A DNA stretch of 60,365 bases from positions 1-60,365 of IMG/VR virus record IMGVR_UViG_3300050138_000232. One strand, 5' to 3'. Each line of letters opens with the position of its first letter. Within the stretch, counting starts at the first letter, position 1. The notes beneath the pieces are model-generated. The model saw only the letters and a list, made by a program, of their open reading frames with translations. It was not told the origin of the DNA and did not search any database. This DNA is from a virus. Shown one piece after another: positions 4,398-24,697 of this stretch. A program made the position numbers and the translations under genes.

Positions 4398-5113
4398 AGG
4401 AGGAATTCAACAGGGACGGTTATGTTGTCAGGTCGTTTTACAAGACGAGCTTGGCGTTCAACCTGACCGAAGATCACCTCAAGGCAGTTCATTCCCGCAG
4501 CACCGACCAGTATATCGGCTACCTGCGGACTATCGCAAAGACGATGGATATACAGAAGCTGTTCACAATGGATCATGTTGTCAAAGCCCTCCTTGAACTC
4601 GGCGTATCGAGACCGTCCATGCCAACCGGACCGGTGATGAACGTCATGTCTCCCGGTCTTCGTATCCCCGGCGGCTATGATGGCACCAAGGCTCATCAGG
4701 ACTGGCCGTCTGTTCAAGGCAGCCTGGACATGGTCGTCGCGTGGATCGCGCTTACGGACATCTCCAAAGACAACTATCCACTTGAGGTTATCCCCGGCAG
4801 TCATCTGGACGGGTTGCTGCTTCCTAAGTACGAAGATGGTCATGTCGGTAATGTTATGGAGGTTGACGTAGATGAGAGTCGATTTGTCCCGATTGAATGT
4901 AAAGCTGGCGACGTTGTCTTTCTTAGTGGATTCCTTGTCCACCGGACGGGACACGGCAACAGGTTCCGCGCTGCCGTCTCTCAGCGTTTCGATAATGCTA
5001 ATGACCCCTCTTTCATCTCGCGTGGATACCCTTGCGCCCAAACACGAACGGTTGAGAGGGAGATACTCTGGTATCCTCCTACCGAAGAAGTAAGGAGCGT
5101 GTATGTGGATTAA
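4394..5113 (+). CDS. Phytanoyl-CoA dioxygenase-like Fe(II)/2-oxoglutarate enzyme
   Basis: 239 residues. The iron triad is visible as H101-Q-D103 in KAHQDW and a distal His (H183 or H187) in FLVHRTGHGNRFR, with a following Arg for 2-oxoglutarate. Family members hydroxylate small molecules or sugar/nucleotide moieties. The GSHLDG segment after the metal site is typical. This is one of two such enzymes in this operon; they differ in sequence, so they are not a recent duplication. The substrate is unknown. Confidence 0.8.
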   Translation: MKEEFNRDGYVVRSFYKTSLAFNLTEDHLKAVHSRSTDQYIGYLRTIAKTMDIQKLFTMDHVVKALLELGVSRPSMPTGPVMNVMSPGLRIPGGYDGTKAHQDWPSVQGSLDMVVAWIALTDISKDNYPLEVIPGSHLDGLLLPKYEDGHVGNVMEVDVDESRFVPIECKAGDVVFLSGFLVHRTGHGNRFRAAVSQRFDNANDPSFISRGYPCAQTRTVEREILWYPPTEEVRSVYVD

Positions 5114-6023
5114 GCAAGGTCGAATATTCAACCTCGAACTCAATCCCTGTCGCACCACTCACGCGCAAGTTCCAACGCCTTTCGTATTCGATAACTTCAT
5201 TCGCGTTTACTACGCCTGCCGCGATACGCATAATCAAAGCTATCCGGCGTATTTTGATCTGTCTTTCGATTTGAAAACGGTCCTTAACGTCCACGAAACG
5301 TCTATCATTGAACGTGGCAAGCCGGGAATGTTCGACAGCGACGGCGTCATGCCGAGTTGTGTTGTACGAAACGGCGACGAGTTGTGGATGTATTACGTCG
5401 GGTGGAACGAACTGTCCAAGACGGCGCGGTATCACAACGCGACCGGCGTCGCAGTCAGCAAGGATGGCGGAGAATCGTTTCAAAGAATGTTTGATGGTCC
5501 TATACTTGATCGTCTTCCGCACGAGCCTGGACTTGCAGTGCTGCCGTTCGTGATGTTTGATGAACCTCAAGGCGTCTACAAGATGTGGTACGACAGTGGA
5601 ACAGCTTGGCATCGCGTCGGCGATAAGTATGAACCGGTCTATGTAATAAAGTACGCCGAGTCTGAAGACGGTGTAGAATGGGATAGATGGGGCGAGGAGT
5701 GTATCCGTCAGGAGTACGCGCTTGAAGCATTGTCACGTCCTTGCGTACTCAAGACCTCTGCTGGATACGATATGTATTATTGTTCGCGCCATTGTGATGA
5801 TTATCGCGGCGGACGCGGCAGCTATCGTTTATGCGAAGCTAATTCCACTGACGGTACTTATTTTATTCGCGACGATGATCCTGTTATTAAACGAGACAGA
5901 TGGGATTCCGACATGCAATGTTATCCTTACGTCATCGAGCTTAACGGGCAGAGGATAATGTTTTTCAACGGCAACGACTTCGGTCAGACAGGGATAGGGT
6001 TAGCGATATGGCAGGACGCTTAG
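5103..6023 (+). CDS. Five-bladed beta-propeller glycosidase-like protein (GH43/32 type)
   Basis: 306 residues. Repeated blades with W.MYYVGWN, YKMWYDSG, YDMYYCSRH and RIMFFNGND are typical of GH43/GH32/GH68-like propellers, as is the acidic FDSDGVMPS segment near residue 80. It lacks a signal peptide, so it acts in the cytoplasm or as part of the virion. In such operons these proteins may act on the sugar being built rather than degrade host polymers. It overlaps the dioxygenase gene by 11 bases. Confidence 0.68.
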   Translation: MWIKQGRIFNLELNPCRTTHAQVPTPFVFDNFIRVYYACRDTHNQSYPAYFDLSFDLKTVLNVHETSIIERGKPGMFDSDGVMPSCVVRNGDELWMYYVGWNELSKTARYHNATGVAVSKDGGESFQRMFDGPILDRLPHEPGLAVLPFVMFDEPQGVYKMWYDSGTAWHRVGDKYEPVYVIKYAESEDGVEWDRWGEECIRQEYALEALSRPCVLKTSAGYDMYYCSRHCDDYRGGRGSYRLCEANSTDGTYFIRDDDPVIKRDRWDSDMQCYPYVIELNGQRIMFFNGNDFGQTGIGLAIWQDA

Positions 6024-13339: not shown

Positions 13340-13895
13340 AAGTTCGTATCGCTGTTCCGATTGTAAATATCAGTTCGAAAAGATTACAAAAAATCTTCCA
13401 AAGAAGGAGCCTAATTGCCCTAAATGTAAGAAAATGAACCGCGTTAATTTCAAGAGCTCTGTTTCAGACAAGACGCATCCTATGAAGCAGGAACCTGAGT
13501 TTTTCGTCGGGGGTACTCCTGATAATCCCAAACAATCCTGTAGTGTCGGAGGAGCATCGAACTTCAACAAAGCGTGGGACATGACGCAGGAGATGGTGGC
13601 TCAGGATTACCAGCTTACTGATTTAAACACTAATCTTCGCACCGGCGACAACATGGTGCCGAAGCTCCGTCCGGACTTGGAGACAAAGGTTGATTCGGTA
13701 TTCGCTGCTCAGAAGCCGGTTATGGGGCAAGACTTGTCCGCTACGTTAAACAAGAATCTGACTCGCCAGATAAATGCAGGAGCCTTTAAAAACTACGGCG
13801 GATCCGGCGATGTCGTAGCTCGCCAGCAAAATAGCGGGTTTAAACCGACTACAAATATCATCATGGAACACAATAAAGGCGATAAGTTAAATTGA
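13332..13895 (+). CDS. Zinc-ribbon protein upstream of portal
   Basis: 187 residues. The N terminus YRCSDCKYQFEK..EPNCPKCKKMNRV is a four-cysteine zinc ribbon of the FmdB/regulatory type; the rest is low-complexity and rich in Asn, Gln and Lys. The stop overlaps the TTG start of the portal gene. The function is unknown. Confidence 0.75.
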   Translation: MYKSSYRCSDCKYQFEKITKNLPKKEPNCPKCKKMNRVNFKSSVSDKTHPMKQEPEFFVGGTPDNPKQSCSVGGASNFNKAWDMTQEMVAQDYQLTDLNTNLRTGDNMVPKLRPDLETKVDSVFAAQKPVMGQDLSATLNKNLTRQINAGAFKNYGGSGDVVARQQNSGFKPTTNIIMEHNKGDKLN

Positions 13896-15724
13896 AAATA
13901 CCTGGCAAAAACGTCGGCGCATTCGCTAAAGAGGTCTTGGACCAATGCACGGCGTCGAAACCGGAACGACTACAACGGGGTAGTACATTCAGAAATATTT
14001 ATCTCACAGGTTCTGAACAAGGTGAAGCGTCACCGTATAACGAAGTATTTGCATTTATTGATAATTTAGGTTCTTTTCTCTATAGCGCTGTCGAACTGAA
14101 ATTCAATATTGACTGCTATGGATCGGCAAGCGTTGCTGATCGCGCCAAGATGCGAGCCGCGTCTTCTGAGTTTTACAAACAGTTCCGTCGCAGTAACACC
14201 GACACCTTACTGGAATCGGCTGTGACATGGGGATTGGTCAAGGGAAAAACCTTTATAAAGAACGCATGGACGTCGCAAGGCTTCAAAGACGTGATGATTC
14301 AGCCTGAAATGATGGGTGTTTTAGAGGAGAATCTTGATCATTTAGACGATCAGGACGCGTTCAGTCATACAACATATCTGACTCCGAACAAATTATACCG
14401 CATGCTGCGTACCAACCCTGGACGCGAAGAAATCATGCGAAAAGCGATGAAATACTCGATTCAGGGCAATAAAGGTGATGATCCTGAGCATGAGAACACC
14501 CTTCGACAGATCGTTGTCGGCGGTCTCCAGCCTTACAACATGATCGGTCAGCAGGCGTCTACGGCTCGCGGGCAGGTAAGATGGCTCGACGCGCCTGGTC
14601 CGCAGTTTGCTCCTGAAGTGATGGAGAGTTTAATCCCTATCCACGAACTATGGATTTGGGATGATGAACGGGATAATGAAAAAGACGGGCTCGACGGCGA
14701 GTATACTACCATCCAATTTATCGGGCAGGACGTTGTACTCGCTGGCGAACTCACACACCGCAATCTATTCGCCGATCAATACGAGCCTCAGAATAAAGAA
14801 AAGAAAAAGGAACCGTCTATACATAATCCTCTCGCAGGACATCATCCGTTCATAGAGATATGTCCGAATCCTCTTGATGGTTATTTCTGGGGACGGTCGG
14901 AGTTATGCAACGTTGCTCTTTTGCAGAAATATATCAACGCTCGTGTTGAAGGTATCAACCAGATGCTCCGGCGCCAGGAAGATCCTCCAAAATTCTTCAC
15001 AGGCGTGAGCGGTATAAAACAAGCTGCGTATAGCATGATAAAAAAAGCTGGCGGCTACATGACCGATTCGAATCCGAATGCGAAAGTTGTAGATCTGGCA
15101 CCGGCGCTCCCTGAAGGTTTGTGGGAATCACTGCACGAGTTCCAGGCGATGTTCGATCGCATGGCGGGATTCACAGCAACGATGAGCGGACGTGGCGATA
15201 AAGGAGTTCGTTCAGGTTCTCATTCTGACGCGCTAACTCGCAACGCTTCCCCGCGTTTTAAAGACAGAGCACTTTTAGTCGAACGACAGCTCGAAAACCT
15301 CGGCGCGTTGAAACTAGATATGCTTAAAGCGCATGTCGCTTATCCAATAACCGCGTGGGTAGGGAAAAAAGACGGGGGTATTCAAGGTAGCCTCCCTCCA
15401 AGCGATCCCACGGAACAGGCTCCTGCCCCCGGCATGGTCCCGATGGAATTCACATTCTATGACCTACCGGAAAACTGCAAAGTCGTTGTAGATAGCCATT
15501 CGAGCAGTCCTGCATTCGGCGAAGAAACTCGCCACTTGATGTTCGACTTGTTCAAAGTTGGTGCTGTTAAACCTGAACGGTTAGTCGAACATCTGCATCC
15601 CCCCGGAGCAGACGAGATGATCCAGGACATTGAAAGAGCGGCAGCAGAAAAAGCGGCGTTTGCAGCAGCACATCCTGAGTTGGCAGTAGAAGCCGAAGCT
15701 AAAGGCAAAAAGAAGAAACACTAG
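13892..15724 (+). CDS. Portal protein
   Basis: 610 residues, placed directly after terminase as in podoviruses. It carries long helical segments and an MLRRQEDPPKFF..AAYSMIKKAGGYM region typical of portal wings and stem. The C terminus is Ala/Glu-rich and ends in KGKKKKH, as in barrel tails of portals. A dodecameric ring at the unique capsid vertex is expected. The start is TTG within TTGA shared with the upstream stop. A weak ACTACC-like site at 13969 falls inside codons 26-31 and may be chance. Confidence 0.85.
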   Translation: MKIPGKNVGAFAKEVLDQCTASKPERLQRGSTFRNIYLTGSEQGEASPYNEVFAFIDNLGSFLYSAVELKFNIDCYGSASVADRAKMRAASSEFYKQFRRSNTDTLLESAVTWGLVKGKTFIKNAWTSQGFKDVMIQPEMMGVLEENLDHLDDQDAFSHTTYLTPNKLYRMLRTNPGREEIMRKAMKYSIQGNKGDDPEHENTLRQIVVGGLQPYNMIGQQASTARGQVRWLDAPGPQFAPEVMESLIPIHELWIWDDERDNEKDGLDGEYTTIQFIGQDVVLAGELTHRNLFADQYEPQNKEKKKEPSIHNPLAGHHPFIEICPNPLDGYFWGRSELCNVALLQKYINARVEGINQMLRRQEDPPKFFTGVSGIKQAAYSMIKKAGGYMTDSNPNAKVVDLAPALPEGLWESLHEFQAMFDRMAGFTATMSGRGDKGVRSGSHSDALTRNASPRFKDRALLVERQLENLGALKLDMLKAHVAYPITAWVGKKDGGIQGSLPPSDPTEQAPAPGMVPMEFTFYDLPENCKVVVDSHSSSPAFGEETRHLMFDLFKVGAVKPERLVEHLHPPGADEMIQDIERAAAEKAAFAAAHPELAVEAEAKGKKKKH

Positions 15725-16248
15725 AGCCAACCCCAAGCTTCTCCTCGATGAATCTGACTTATAGCACCTCTGGTTACTTTGAATTTTTCAGCAACTACTC
15801 TGTGAGAATGACCTTCTCTAATCATCTCTCTTATTTCTAATATTTTGCAGTCATCTAGTTTCGAGTTTGGATGTTTGGTTCCTCTTAGAGTTCTTCCGTG
15901 TCTTACAGAATCTTCGCCGTTTTCTTTCAGCGTTCCCCATCTCAGATTAGAAACTTTGTTGTTAGCAGGGTTCCCGTCCGAGTGTAAAACATACGGCTTA
16001 TTCGCAGGCTGATGACTAATGAAGTTTTCTGCAACAAGTCTGTGTATAAGATATAATTTTGGCTTCGAGTCCTTAGTTAGATTGACAAGCAGATGCCCGT
16101 ATTTTCCACATTTCTTAAGACTAAGAATCTTCTTATGATTTCTGATTTTGCCGAAAGAAGATATATCATAGATACTTTCGTATCCAATAAGAGGTCGCCA
16201 TTGCTCATTGATGTTATTATGTAAAGCGGATATTATTTCAGAAGTCAT
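15721..16248 (-). CDS. NUMOD4/HNH homing endonuclease
   Basis: 175 residues. The N terminus EQWRPLIGYESIYDISSFGKIRNHKKI is a NUMOD4 module, followed by HNH_3 (LIHRLVAENFI..PYVLHSDGNPANNKVSNLRWGTLKEN) and a C-terminal HTH (CKILEIREMIREGHSHRVVAEKFKVTRGAISQIHRG). It is the only minus-strand gene inside the 10-40 kb late block and its stop overlaps the portal stop by four bases. It is probably a recently acquired free-standing homing gene. Confidence 0.9.
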   Translation of the reverse strand: MTSEIISALHNNINEQWRPLIGYESIYDISSFGKIRNHKKILSLKKCGKYGHLLVNLTKDSKPKLYLIHRLVAENFISHQPANKPYVLHSDGNPANNKVSNLRWGTLKENGEDSVRHGRTLRGTKHPNSKLDDCKILEIREMIREGHSHRVVAEKFKVTRGAISQIHRGEAWGWL

Positions 16249-16276: not shown

Positions 16277-16310
16277 AAAGGTCAGATGCGCTGAAACGCT
16301 CTGGCCTTTT
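16277..16310. terminator. Strong intrinsic terminator after the portal/HNH region
   Basis: AAAGGTCAGA and TCTGGCCTTT form a 10-bp stem with a single G-T pair around a 13-nt loop, followed by T. The A-rich left edge makes it work in both directions. It separates portal transcription from the unit at 16355. Confidence 0.75.
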
Positions 16311-16354
16311 GCAATTTATATGTCTATGCGTCCAAAATCAATACTGAAAGTATA

Positions 16355-16393
16355 ACTACCCCCACGTAGTCATAACTACCCCTACGGGGTACA
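16355..16393. promoter_or_regulatory. Two tandem ACTACC palindromes
   Basis: ACTACCCCCACGTAGT (16355-16370) and ACTACCCCTACGGGGTACA (16375-16393) start 20 bp apart, i.e. about two helical turns, on the same face. They lie upstream of a possible promoter (TTTACT, 16 bp, TATAGA at 16430) for the 17-residue peptide unit. This is the only place with two copies. Confidence 0.65.
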
Positions 16394-16407
16394 ACTGGTT
16401 GATTTGC

Positions 16408-16435
16408 TTTACTTTTTTATTGTTTTTATTATAGA
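16408..16435 (+). promoter_or_regulatory. Candidate promoter for the structured peptide unit
   Basis: TTTACT at 16408-16413 and TATAGA at 16430-16435 are separated by 16 bp in a T-rich tract. A start near 16442 would give a leader of about 105 nt before the small gene at 16548. The -35 match is moderate. Confidence 0.45.
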
Positions 16436-16454
16436 ATGCCGATATATTGACAAT

Positions 16455-16544
16455 GCGATTGAGGTTCTCAATCGCCTGACCGTGCAGACCACGGTTCGGA
16501 ATGCGGGATGGTACTGACTTCTCCTGCATCTCATAACGGAGATG
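16455..16544 (+). ncRNA. Structured 5' leader with four hairpins
   Basis: Perfect stems: GCGATTGAG/CTCAATCGC (16455-16475, 3-nt loop) and ACCGTG/CACGGT (16479-16495). Then ATGCGGGA pairs with TCCTGCAT (16501-16529, one wobble), and CATCTC pairs with GAGATG (16527-16544). The last two share three bases, so they exclude each other, and the last one buries the GGAG ribosome site at 16538. This looks like an RNA switch controlling the peptide at 16548, or the body of a small RNA. I match it to no known riboswitch class. Confidence 0.5.
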
Positions 16545-16547
16545 AAA

Positions 16548-16601
16548 ATGAACGCCATGTTTCGTAAAGGCCGTAAAGGCAAGCGCAAAGGCCGTAAGTA
16601 G
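16548..16601 (+). CDS. 17-residue Lys/Arg-rich peptide
   Basis: MNAMFRKGRKGKRKGRK, with 10 of 17 residues Lys or Arg and a repeated K/R-G pattern. GGAG at 16538 is 6 nt before the ATG; an internal ATG at 16557 also fits. The gene is followed by a hairpin CGTAAGTA/TACTTACG overlapping its stop and then by a terminator, so it is the only product of its transcript. A DNA- or RNA-binding peptide is suggested by charge alone. Confidence 0.6.
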   Translation: MNAMFRKGRKGKRKGRK

Positions 16602-16612
16602 TTTTACTTACG
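16593..16612 (+). repeat. Perfect hairpin over the stop codon of the small peptide
   Basis: CGTAAGTA, loop GTTT, TACTTACG. The stem overlaps the TAG at 16599. It could protect the RNA end or mark a processing site. Confidence 0.6.
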
Positions 16613-16625
16613 CTTAAGCAAATAG

Positions 16626-16655
16626 ACGGCAGGGCCAACGTCCTGCCGTTTCTAT
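16626..16655 (+). terminator. Intrinsic terminator closing the small peptide unit
   Basis: ACGGCAGG and CCTGCCGT make an 8-bp GC-rich stem with an 8-nt loop, followed by TTCTAT. It would end the approximately 210-nt transcript before the gene at 16677. Confidence 0.75.
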
Positions 16656-16676: not shown

Positions 16677-17075
16677 ATGCCGATGAACATGCCGCCACCT
16701 GGAGGATTACCTTCGCCGATGACACAGGCACCAGCTAACGCTGGGGCAGCCTCGTCACCACAAGGCAATCAAGGCAACATTCACGCAGCGATGACTAAAA
16801 TTAAGAACGCGGTTCAAATGCTTGGCGAAGCTCTCCCCTTAATTCCGATGGGTACTGAAGAACATTCCAAGGTGGCAAAGGTCATAGCTGATCTTTCCAA
16901 AGGCTTGAGCAGCGCGATGACGAATAACCCGCAACTGGAAATGGCAGCAATGCAGCAGGCGATGAAAGCCAAAGCGCAGAGTGCTCCGATGGATGCGATG
17001 GCAAGGCAATTTTCAGCAGGACAGGGCGCGGGTCAACCGCCAGCTACGTCTCAACCACAACCCGAAGCAGCGTAG
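16677..17075 (+). CDS. Hypothetical Met/Ala/Pro-rich structural-region protein
   Basis: 132 residues, MPMNMPPPGGLPSPMTQ.., with an ordered central helix (AAMTKIKNAVQMLGEALPLIPMGTEEHSKVAKVIADLSKGLS) and disordered ends. AAGGA lies before the start. Proteins of this kind often sit between portal and scaffold in podoviruses; the role is not known. Confidence 0.7.
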   Translation: MPMNMPPPGGLPSPMTQAPANAGAASSPQGNQGNIHAAMTKIKNAVQMLGEALPLIPMGTEEHSKVAKVIADLSKGLSSAMTNNPQLEMAAMQQAMKAKAQSAPMDAMARQFSAGQGAGQPPATSQPQPEAA

Positions 17076-17084
17076 GAGATATTT

Positions 17085-17264
17085 ATGGCTGATAGTTCAA
17101 CAAGTAACTTTCCAAGGGCGTATGTAAATTCCGTACGTGAAAACGATCCGGTCGTTATTCGCGTCGATCAGGATAAAGGCGAGATAGGTTCTCGTTCGTC
17201 TGGTATGCCAAAGGATATCATGACGACCGGAATGAGCTTGTCGCACGTAGGCGGAAAGGTTTAA
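17085..17264 (+). CDS. Small hypothetical protein
   Basis: 59 residues, MADSSTSNFPRAYVNSVREND.., preceded by TAGGAGATATTT with GGAG 6-7 nt before the ATG. It lies 9 nt after one gene and 3 nt before the next in the capsid operon, and has normal coding character. Hydrophilic; function unknown. Confidence 0.7.
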   Translation: MADSSTSNFPRAYVNSVRENDPVVIRVDQDKGEIGSRSSGMPKDIMTTGMSLSHVGGKV

Positions 17265-17267
17265 TTT

Positions 17268-17912
17268 ATGACCGAAGAATTTATCGAAGTCCCCAAATCC
17301 CGAATCAAACAGCTTGAAAGCGTAGCTAGTCTCGCAGATGCTCTCTGGAACGATCCTAAAGTCGGCATGACGATTAAGGAACGTTATAAGGAGATGAATC
17401 CTAACGCTAATATCCCTGAAGTAGTCGTTGCTCAGTCCAGCCGTAAGGTTGAACAGGATCTTATCGCCAAGATCGAAGCTAAAGAAAAAGCTGTCGATGA
17501 CAAGATCAGTGCCTGGGAAAAGAAAAACGCGGATAAGGAAGCTGCTGACGAGAGCAAACAGGCTGAAGCGTCTTTCGCATCAGAGGTCGAAGCTACCAAA
17601 GCTAAATATAAGCTCACTCAGGAAGGCATGGAGAAAGTCTTTGCCCGCATGAAAGAGAAGAACAATCCTGACGTGGAAGCTGCAGCAGCATGGGTTACTG
17701 ATCATGAAGTTAAAGCTGCTCCTACCTCCGGATATAATGATTCTGCATTCAATCCTTATGGCTCAAAATCGGAAGATAAGAGTTGGGAACTTTTGAATAA
17801 GAATCCGTTCGATGGAAAATTCGCCGAACAGGAGATCAACCGTATCGCTCAGGACTTTGCTGGTGGTCGCGCCCATCTTTATGGGCCGAACGGCATGGGC
17901 GGCGAACTATAA
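17268..17912 (+). CDS. Probable scaffolding protein
   Basis: 214 residues, highly charged and helical (KVEQDLIAKIEAKEKAVDDKISAWEKKNADKEAADE), immediately upstream of the major capsid gene. Length, acidic coiled-coil character and position are what scaffolds show; no sequence motif proves it. It would guide capsid assembly and leave the head before packaging. Confidence 0.7.
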   Translation: MTEEFIEVPKSRIKQLESVASLADALWNDPKVGMTIKERYKEMNPNANIPEVVVAQSSRKVEQDLIAKIEAKEKAVDDKISAWEKKNADKEAADESKQAEASFASEVEATKAKYKLTQEGMEKVFARMKEKNNPDVEAAAAWVTDHEVKAAPTSGYNDSAFNPYGSKSEDKSWELLNKNPFDGKFAEQEINRIAQDFAGGRAHLYGPNGMGGEL

Positions 17913-17928
17913 AACAGGAGAATAAACA

Positions 17929-18993
17929 ATGGCTTTCCCAACAACGGTGCAGACTCCTCCAGTCTCGGGTATTCTTCCAGGTGGTGCCACGCAGGCCCAA
18001 CTTGCAGCAATCACCCGTCGTGCAGTAGTCCCTACGGTATTCTGTCAGATTTATCAGTCTCATCCGTTGCTGAGTCTGTTATTCTCTAATTCCCAACGCG
18101 CTAAAGGCGGCGTGTCGGCCATCACCATCCCGGTTCAGGGTGCTCCGTTTACCAACTTCTCATGGGGCGGTTTCGGTGGCGACTTTGCGATGCCTCAGGA
18201 TCAGGACGCGATTACCAATCTTCAGTTCAACTTGAAGCTCGGCATGGTCCCAATGGGCTTCTTCGGTATGGAGGCTTTGATTCAAGCGTCAGAAGTCATC
18301 ATTCCAAAGCTTCGTGTCGTAATGTCAGACGCGGCGGTTGTAATGAAGAAAGCGTTCGCCTCGGCTATGTACGCCAACAACGCGGCAAACCCTCTTGTTA
18401 TCGATTCGCTTGTTCAGGCTTATGACAACGGCACGCTGACCACATCTTACGGCGGTATCACACGCACCGGCAATCCCTGGATTCAAGGTCAGTATTATAC
18501 CAATATCGGCGCTCAGGCAGTAACCCGCGCCGGTATGGCAACTCTTCTCACTCAGATCTCGACCGCAGCCGGTGGCGAATCACCAGATTTCATGGTGATG
18601 AATCCTGCAAACTGGGCAGCCTTGATGACAGATTTCATGGGTTATGAGCAGTATCAGACGCGTCCGCGCTCAATGTACGGCAAAGACGACGTCGTAAACG
18701 CTGGATTCCGTGCGATCCGCGTTCTCGATACTCCCATCTTCCCGGATCCGTATTGCCCTGTCGGTCAGGCGTTTGCGATTAATTCGCGTTATCTGTCTCT
18801 GTATTTGTCGGAATACGCTCCGTTTGCCTTCTCAGGCTTCCATTCGCTGATCCCTCTCGGTCAGATCGCAGATATCGGCGTGTTGTTCTCAGCACTCGAT
18901 CTCGTTTGCGCCAAGCCTTCTTCGGGAGCCTATATCACGGGTATTTCCAACGCAGCGTGGAACGGCCCTCTCGCAACACCTGCAGTAATCTAA
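17929..18993 (+). CDS. Major capsid protein
   Basis: 354 residues. It follows a scaffold-like gene behind a strong AGGAG site and has the mixed, evenly hydrophobic composition of coat proteins (GMVPMGFFGMEALIQASEVIIPKLRVVMSDAAVVMKKAFASAMYANN as the spine-helix-like region). LLTQIS..PDFMVMNPANWAALM and FRAIRVLDTPIFPDPYCPVG recall the A-domain of HK97-fold capsids. Assignment rests mainly on position and size. Confidence 0.8.
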   Translation: MAFPTTVQTPPVSGILPGGATQAQLAAITRRAVVPTVFCQIYQSHPLLSLLFSNSQRAKGGVSAITIPVQGAPFTNFSWGGFGGDFAMPQDQDAITNLQFNLKLGMVPMGFFGMEALIQASEVIIPKLRVVMSDAAVVMKKAFASAMYANNAANPLVIDSLVQAYDNGTLTTSYGGITRTGNPWIQGQYYTNIGAQAVTRAGMATLLTQISTAAGGESPDFMVMNPANWAALMTDFMGYEQYQTRPRSMYGKDDVVNAGFRAIRVLDTPIFPDPYCPVGQAFAINSRYLSLYLSEYAPFAFSGFHSLIPLGQIADIGVLFSALDLVCAKPSSGAYITGISNAAWNGPLATPAVI

Positions 18994-24666: not shown

Positions 24667-24697
24667 CACAACTACCCCGTAGTGGTACAAAGTGGGT
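24663..24697 (+). promoter_or_regulatory. Palindrome-spaced leaderless promoter of the lipoprotein gene
   Basis: Perfect -35 TTGACA (24663-24668), 17-bp spacer containing most of the palindrome ACTACCCCGTAGTGGTACA (24671-24689), -10 TACAAA (24686-24691), then 6 nt to the ATG at 24698. No Shine-Dalgarno is present, so transcription would begin at or next to the start codon. A protein bound to the palindrome would block RNA polymerase directly. Confidence 0.7.

Follow-up and report, generated by a model that had tools for sequence, protein, structure and literature searches.

A very small basic peptide gene beside the head genes of a group of tailed phages

We analysed a 60,365-base virus record (IMG/VR IMGVR_UViG_3300050138_000232), called here the window, by which we mean the whole stretch of DNA. 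Between its portal and capsid genes lies a tiny gene for a basic peptide, MNAMFRKGRKGKRKGRK, that belongs to a family spread through a large group of uncultured tailed double-stranded DNA phages. The existence of this gene, its position, the selection acting on its protein sequence, its tandem copies and the structured RNA before its ribosome site are shown by comparison of relatives. We regard the gene as real and coding with near certainty. Our leading interpretation, held tentatively and based on sequence comparison, is that the product is a putative nucleic-acid-binding peptide for head assembly or packaging. A peptide of this kind in head assembly is not known for phages of this type.

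Conservation and coding of the tiny peptide gene

The gene and its ribosome site are placed in the window as follows.

16548-16601, plus strand: tiny basic peptide gene MNAMFRKGRKGKRKGRK, stop codon TAG (read as an open reading frame, ORF; present in relatives)
16538-16541, plus strand: Shine-Dalgarno (SD) sequence GGAG of the tiny peptide gene

The original prediction, made from the letters of the window, called a 17-codon, SD-led basic ORF at this site, and this call is borne out by the family of peptides that relatives carry. Both strands of the window were scanned for ORFs of 8-25 residues with an ATG start, a ribosome site and a Lys/Arg content of 40% or more, and MNAMFRKGRKGKRKGRK is one of only two that qualify in 60 kb. 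A DNA similarity search of the window against known phages gave no match. All relatives are metagenomic contigs, and related sequences among them are not independent. A search with the capsid protein yielded 15 contigs and a later one using an alignment yielded at least 80, the two sets partly overlapping; an alignment led by Manatee Spring phages matched at least 600 stretches, and we retained the top 80.

A tiny basic ORF stands in the same place in all 15 of the first relatives (for example MKRKHKRARRK, MARRHGRRMRRK and MKRRSHKRGRRK). Across what we term the window clade, an SD-led tiny basic ORF lies between the portal and major capsid genes in 68 of 68 non-identical loci, a count that includes the window itself and comprises 66 loci recognised by fixed criteria and two judged by eye (L004, MKRKHKRARRK; L083, MARHYNRRYRK). 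A second clade, with 38% identity to the window in the major capsid protein (MCP) and 31% in the portal protein, has a comparable tiny SD-led ORF in the portal-to-capsid interval of 57 of 61 loci. The same census criteria applied to the background strand of the same contigs give 3 matches in 1.74 Mb. We also scanned the viral collection blindly with an 18-base pattern for RKGRK followed by a stop, which matched at least 120 contigs. Of 77 new loci examined, 76 have this clade's capsid or portal gene together with a tiny SD-led ORF, and in the one remaining locus the pattern matches the C-terminal end of a longer protein. The peptide lies at a greater distance in a few loci (L028, L032, L058, L075, L080, L111 and L137), which we take to reflect later insertions. 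Phages with weakly related capsids (Mx8, Mx9, BUCT555, ppBjS10J-1, Mwe-JY13, a TM7 phage, MW202803 and MT835830) lack a tiny basic ORF in the portal-to-capsid interval, and the trait therefore seems limited to this clade.

The number of gene copies per locus varies, with single genes, tandem pairs and triplets all present. Triplets occur in L049, L056, L060 and L063, where the three genes lie about -1512, -1383 and -1330 from the capsid gene; in L049 a strong hairpin followed by a T-rich tail separates the first two. In the close relative L003 an additional basic ORF, MMKAKSKSTMRSTKNMARKHMKRKGRK, is found at about 5053-5136, between the p132 and 59-amino-acid (59-aa) genes. The peptide genes are unannotated in both of the second-clade database records (n=2); in the Manatee record MW202753.1 neither peptide gene is annotated and antisense ORF calls cover the site.

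The family comprises 117 distinct peptides of 9-23 residues (mean 13.8). Lys and Arg make up 54% of residues, the net charge is +5 to +10 (mean +7.2), every peptide ends in Lys or Arg, and none contains Trp. By composition the peptides have few hydrophobic residues and no hydrophobic core. In the second clade the ratio of nonsynonymous to synonymous polymorphism (pN/pS) is 0.22 for peptide A (the MYKKMKRGRKTRR type) and 0.31 for peptide B (the MARKARKGRKSRK type), values for which the rows were chosen by sequence pattern, a choice that lowers pN somewhat. There, positions invariant for Arg, Lys, Gly or Thr use different synonymous codons. Lys and Arg are encoded by AAG/AAA and CGT/CGC/CGG, with AGA and AGG nearly absent, and CGT accounts for 41% of Arg codons in the peptides against 18% in the MCP gene, an enrichment that suggests high expression. 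The low pN/pS of the second clade and the avoidance of rare Arg codons identify the peptide as the product. Where the original prediction left open whether the unit makes a peptide or an RNA, the peptide alternative holds and RNA as the product is unlikely, because selection at the codon level shows that the peptide is translated.

The same observations bear on two other explanations. That the ORF arose by chance over a conserved structured RNA would fit the strong folding of the leader, but we consider this very improbable given the background frequency above and the synonymous substitution with residues conserved. The peptide might alternatively be made late and directed at the host, acting on membranes, ribosomes or the nucleoid. 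Short cationic peptides commonly act on such targets; the strict linkage to head genes across wide divergence and the scarcity of hydrophobic residues nevertheless leave this with little likelihood.

Gene order in the two clades

The neighbourhood of the peptide gene in the window is listed below.

13892-15724, plus strand: portal protein gene (31% identity to annotated portal proteins)
15721-16248, minus strand: HNH endonuclease gene, between the portal gene and the peptide unit
16277-16313: terminator-like inverted repeat upstream of the unit (sequence reading)
16624-16651, plus strand: 12-bp hairpin 3' of the peptide gene, with a poor U-tract
16677-17075, plus strand: p132, a small Pro/Met-rich protein, the next gene after the peptide
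17085-17264, plus strand: 59-aa gene of the head operon (sequence reading)
17268-17912, plus strand: 214-aa protein, scaffold-like by position only
17929-18993, plus strand: MCP gene, phrog_9953 (PHROG 9953; 38% identity to annotated major capsid proteins)

Window-clade loci share the order peptide, p132, 59-aa gene, 214-aa gene and capsid gene; p132 homologues come after the tiny peptide in all 15 of the first relatives. The portal gene is on the opposite strand in 56 of 66 loci, and many loci have a TTGAC box 80-110 nt upstream of the peptide ATG. Because the peptide precedes the other head genes behind this box, it probably opens the head operon as its first cistron, which is more likely than an isolated unit. 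The original prediction placed the gene correctly between portal and capsid, a gap that also contains the HNH gene; its description of the unit as self-contained is not supported as a general one. No HNH gene is seen between portal and peptide in the near relatives L002 and L003.

The boundaries proposed for that unit, two intrinsic terminators, fare no better. Terminator-like sites in the 14-20 kb interval number 6, against 6.0 in shuffled sequence. Only 8 of 54 relatives have a hairpin with a U-tract downstream of the peptide gene, and the U-tract of the window's own hairpin (16626) is poor. An isolated, terminator-bounded unit is rejected as a general feature because terminator-like sites are at the shuffle level and U-tracts are rare.

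The arrangement differs in the second clade, where the peptide genes lie downstream of the portal gene on the same strand. Of 48 loci, 47 have a TTGAC box between peptide B and the head gene that follows, which means that the peptides do not lead the capsid operon in this clade. What persists across the clades is the peptide itself rather than any leader role. This comparison bears on a possible attenuation mechanism, in which translating a Lys/Arg-rich ORF would respond to the ribosome or to charged tRNA and thereby adjust expression of the capsid operon. Like trp- and his-type leader peptides, the window-clade gene is a short, residue-enriched ORF at the head of an operon, often with a hairpin downstream. 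It differs from them in having no conserved attenuator, the hairpin and U-tract being as rare as described above, in using common rather than rare codons, and in occurring in duplicated and triplicated copies. The ORF leads the operon in the window clade only; second-clade peptides are separated from the capsid genes by the promoter-like box. Together these points make the attenuation explanation improbable.

Structured RNA ahead of the peptide genes

The window leader contains several inverted repeats on the plus strand.

16455-16475, plus strand: leader hairpin 1, 9 bp, perfect (found in the nearest relative only)
16480-16494, plus strand: leader hairpin 2, CCGTG/CACGG (found in the two nearest relatives)
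16501-16529, plus strand: conserved leader hairpin, 8 bp, core GA-U...UC-UC (arms covary in relatives)
16528-16543, plus strand: weak alternative hairpin over the SD sequence, ATCTC/GAGAT, -3.5 kcal/mol

The segment 16443-16660 folds far better than its shuffles (z -6.2). The two perfect hairpins of the original prediction are present and are limited to the nearest relatives. It is the third element that recurs: a hairpin of the 16501-16529 type appears upstream of the ribosome site in the window clade with the same core and otherwise unrelated stems, although several leaders of the clade have no clear element. Since MAFFT misaligned the variable stems, we compared the pairing of each hairpin's own arms with that of swapped arms. 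Own arms score 4.25 of 6 against 2.61 (sd 0.22) for swapped arms, and the top of 5000 permutations is 3.32; loci for this comparison were chosen by the core alone, and the permutations leave relatedness in. Relatives lacking the peptide and conserved stems had been named beforehand as the observation that would count against the unit. The relatives instead carry the peptide and share one stem, whose arms covary, so the peptide unit is real.

The original prediction further described two mutually exclusive hairpins, one of which hides the ribosome site. The loop of the conserved hairpin complements the SD region of its own leader better than that of other leaders (permutation fraction about 0.001). 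Pairing of the SD region by the 3' side of the loop alone is weak (fraction 0.026), and pairing by the whole loop is better. In the window itself the loop-SD complementarity is small, and the SD hairpin (-3.5 kcal/mol) shares only two bases with the main hairpin (-11.5 kcal/mol); its exact form is found only in the two nearest relatives. With an SD hairpin of marginal energy and restricted to one lineage, and little complementarity, the switch is marginal.

The second clade has a different element. Peptides A and B are separated by an H-type pseudoknot with an AGGG...CCCU stem and a loop, GGCUGACU, that pairs with AGUUGGCC (L018 4814-4876, with homologues in L105-L184). Pairing holds in 93.1% of cells, 41 double changes are seen against 11.9 in shuffles, and versions slid out of register collapse. 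Pairing within a locus is 1.8 kcal/mol more favourable than pairing between swapped partners; these permutations leave relatedness in. A covarying pseudoknot before the ribosome site is thus a finding for the second clade and not for the window. Rfam gave no match for the window at the gathering score and nothing useful at permissive thresholds; for the locus and for L018 the matches did not rise above chance level. Neither the hairpin nor the pseudoknot matches a family there.

These elements are the basis of the main rival to a role in the head, namely that the peptide is an RNA-binding regulator. A bare arginine-rich motif would control translation or transcription of late genes by binding the hairpin or pseudoknot in the mRNA that encodes it, or some other phage RNA. 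Consistent with this, a structured element with covariation precedes the peptide ribosome site in both clades, and hairpin loop and SD region are complementary beyond swapped pairs. The nucleic-acid-binding protein of phage T4 gene 32, which represses its own mRNA, is a precedent (PMC535899). The RNA elements of the two clades differ in kind, however; the pseudoknot precedes peptide B only, and some window-clade leaders are without a clear element. Any highly expressed head peptide would also be expected to have translational control, and the statistics retain relatedness. We consider an RNA-binding regulator unlikely overall. The gene 32 leader contains a pseudoknot too, but both the protein and the pseudoknot are other than those described here, and feedback by the peptide is putative.

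Possible roles of the peptide in the phage head

The reading that we prefer, a nucleic-acid-binding peptide of head assembly or packaging, can be laid out as follows. With a net charge of +5 to +10 the peptide would bind nucleic acid electrostatically. It would be produced along with the head proteins and act on DNA or RNA while heads are being assembled or packaged, perhaps as a small core or condensing peptide, and its position beside the head genes suggests that the target is DNA in or entering the head. The leader hairpin, or the pseudoknot in the second clade, probably tunes translation of the peptide, which may in turn feed back on its own translation. The fuller statement is that a lineage of tailed double-stranded DNA (dsDNA) phages packages its genome or builds its head with a protamine-like peptide of 9-23 residues, controlled by a hairpin or pseudoknot, and present in two or three versions or lost in one subclade. 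This we put forward as a possibility that is still rather doubtful.

The prevailing view is that cations and polyamines, and not basic proteins, neutralise the packaged DNA of tailed dsDNA phages (PMC3281028). A conserved peptide gene beside the head genes would challenge that view or would reveal a new minimal RNA-binding regulator, and in both cases the gene is remarkable for its small size among conserved viral genes. The phage group is abundant in environmental viral contigs (at least 600 capsid matches), and natural lines with zero to three peptide copies allow ready comparisons.

Several points weigh against a nucleic-acid-binding role in the head. A paper on packaged viral DNA notes a lack of evidence for any large contribution of basic proteins to the neutralisation of phage dsDNA (PMC3281028), and the conserved leader RNA is equally compatible with an RNA-binding regulator. 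The window-clade peptide sequence is loose apart from its charge, with a pN/pS of 0.85 for the last eight codons, a value near saturation. One subclade of the second clade (L165, L167, L177 and L178) has no peptide, and a gene fusion or basic tail replacing it was sought in the peptide-less lines and not found; the peptide is therefore dispensable in some phages and not universally required.

The peptide-less subclade also informs a further alternative, in which the peptide is an assembly factor. During procapsid assembly it would associate with scaffold, p132 or portal as an acidic partner, and contact with nucleic acid would not be required. Its fixed position beside the head genes would suit such a role. 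In the second clade, moreover, absence of peptides goes with a more acidic p132 homologue. Its net charge is -11 to -13 in the four peptide-less loci, -9 or -10 in L139, L151 and L153, which have peptide A only, and about -3 to -4 in most loci with both peptides; the extra acidity resides in an acidic N-terminal insert. This trend comes from one nested lineage and is possibly a single event, and simple pairing would not predict more acid upon loss of base. We judge an assembly factor of this kind to be quite unlikely.

Among known proteins, the nearest working analogue of the putative nucleic-acid-binding peptide is gpJ of the Microviridae, a likeness in kind and not shown to be homology. In phiX174, gpJ is a tiny protein rich in Lys, Arg and Gly (38 residues, containing KGKRKG) that is annotated as a DNA-condensation core protein. 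Its gene (848-964) lies directly 5' of the coat gene F (1001-2284). We also count as a likeness the terminator T_J, which is leaky, with a measured value of about 40-60% (PMC11527146). The differences are nevertheless clear. PhiX174 is a single-stranded DNA phage of another virus realm without the terminase motor of tailed phages, and in place of a microvirus genome with J between D/E and F we find tailed-phage terminase, portal and capsid genes. gpJ is longer and ends in an aromatic, coat-docking C-terminus (LWYVGGQQF), which none of the 117 peptides has, given that they lack Trp and end in Lys or Arg. The other virus realm and the missing docking tail place the peptide outside the gpJ family. 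Adenovirus protein mu and baculovirus P6.9 are small basic core proteins of eukaryotic dsDNA viruses, and we know of no tailed-phage member of this kind. Adenovirus mu is produced by cleavage of a precursor, whereas the tiny peptides here are direct gene products.

Promoter and operator-like sequences in the window

Three further features lie between the HNH gene and the leader hairpins.

16355-16370: operator-like palindrome 1, ACTACCCCCACGTAGT
16375-16390: operator-like palindrome 2, ACTACCCCTACGGGGT
16408-16437, plus strand: weak sigma-70-like promoter, TTTACT-18-TAGAAT

The promoter call scores just 9 of 12. The host was also sought through genome contigs, which yielded a single fragment of a metagenome-assembled genome (a Geobacteraceae bin, 4.4 kb) that we do not trust as a host assignment. 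The two palindromes had been interpreted as operators linking the unit to a phage-wide regulon, and they do belong to a window-wide motif with 9 matches against 0.56 expected. Partial contigs of eight relatives do not contain the half-site ACTACCCC. The operator is a trait of this phage and not of the peptide family. The palindromic motif, ACTACCCC..GT, occurs at window positions 226, 13969, 16355, 16375, 24671, 30755, 32148 and 59593. At 24671 and 30755 it occupies the spacer between a TTGACA/TTGCCT box and TACAAA/TAAATT, a placement in the -35/-10 spacer as would be expected of a repressor operator.
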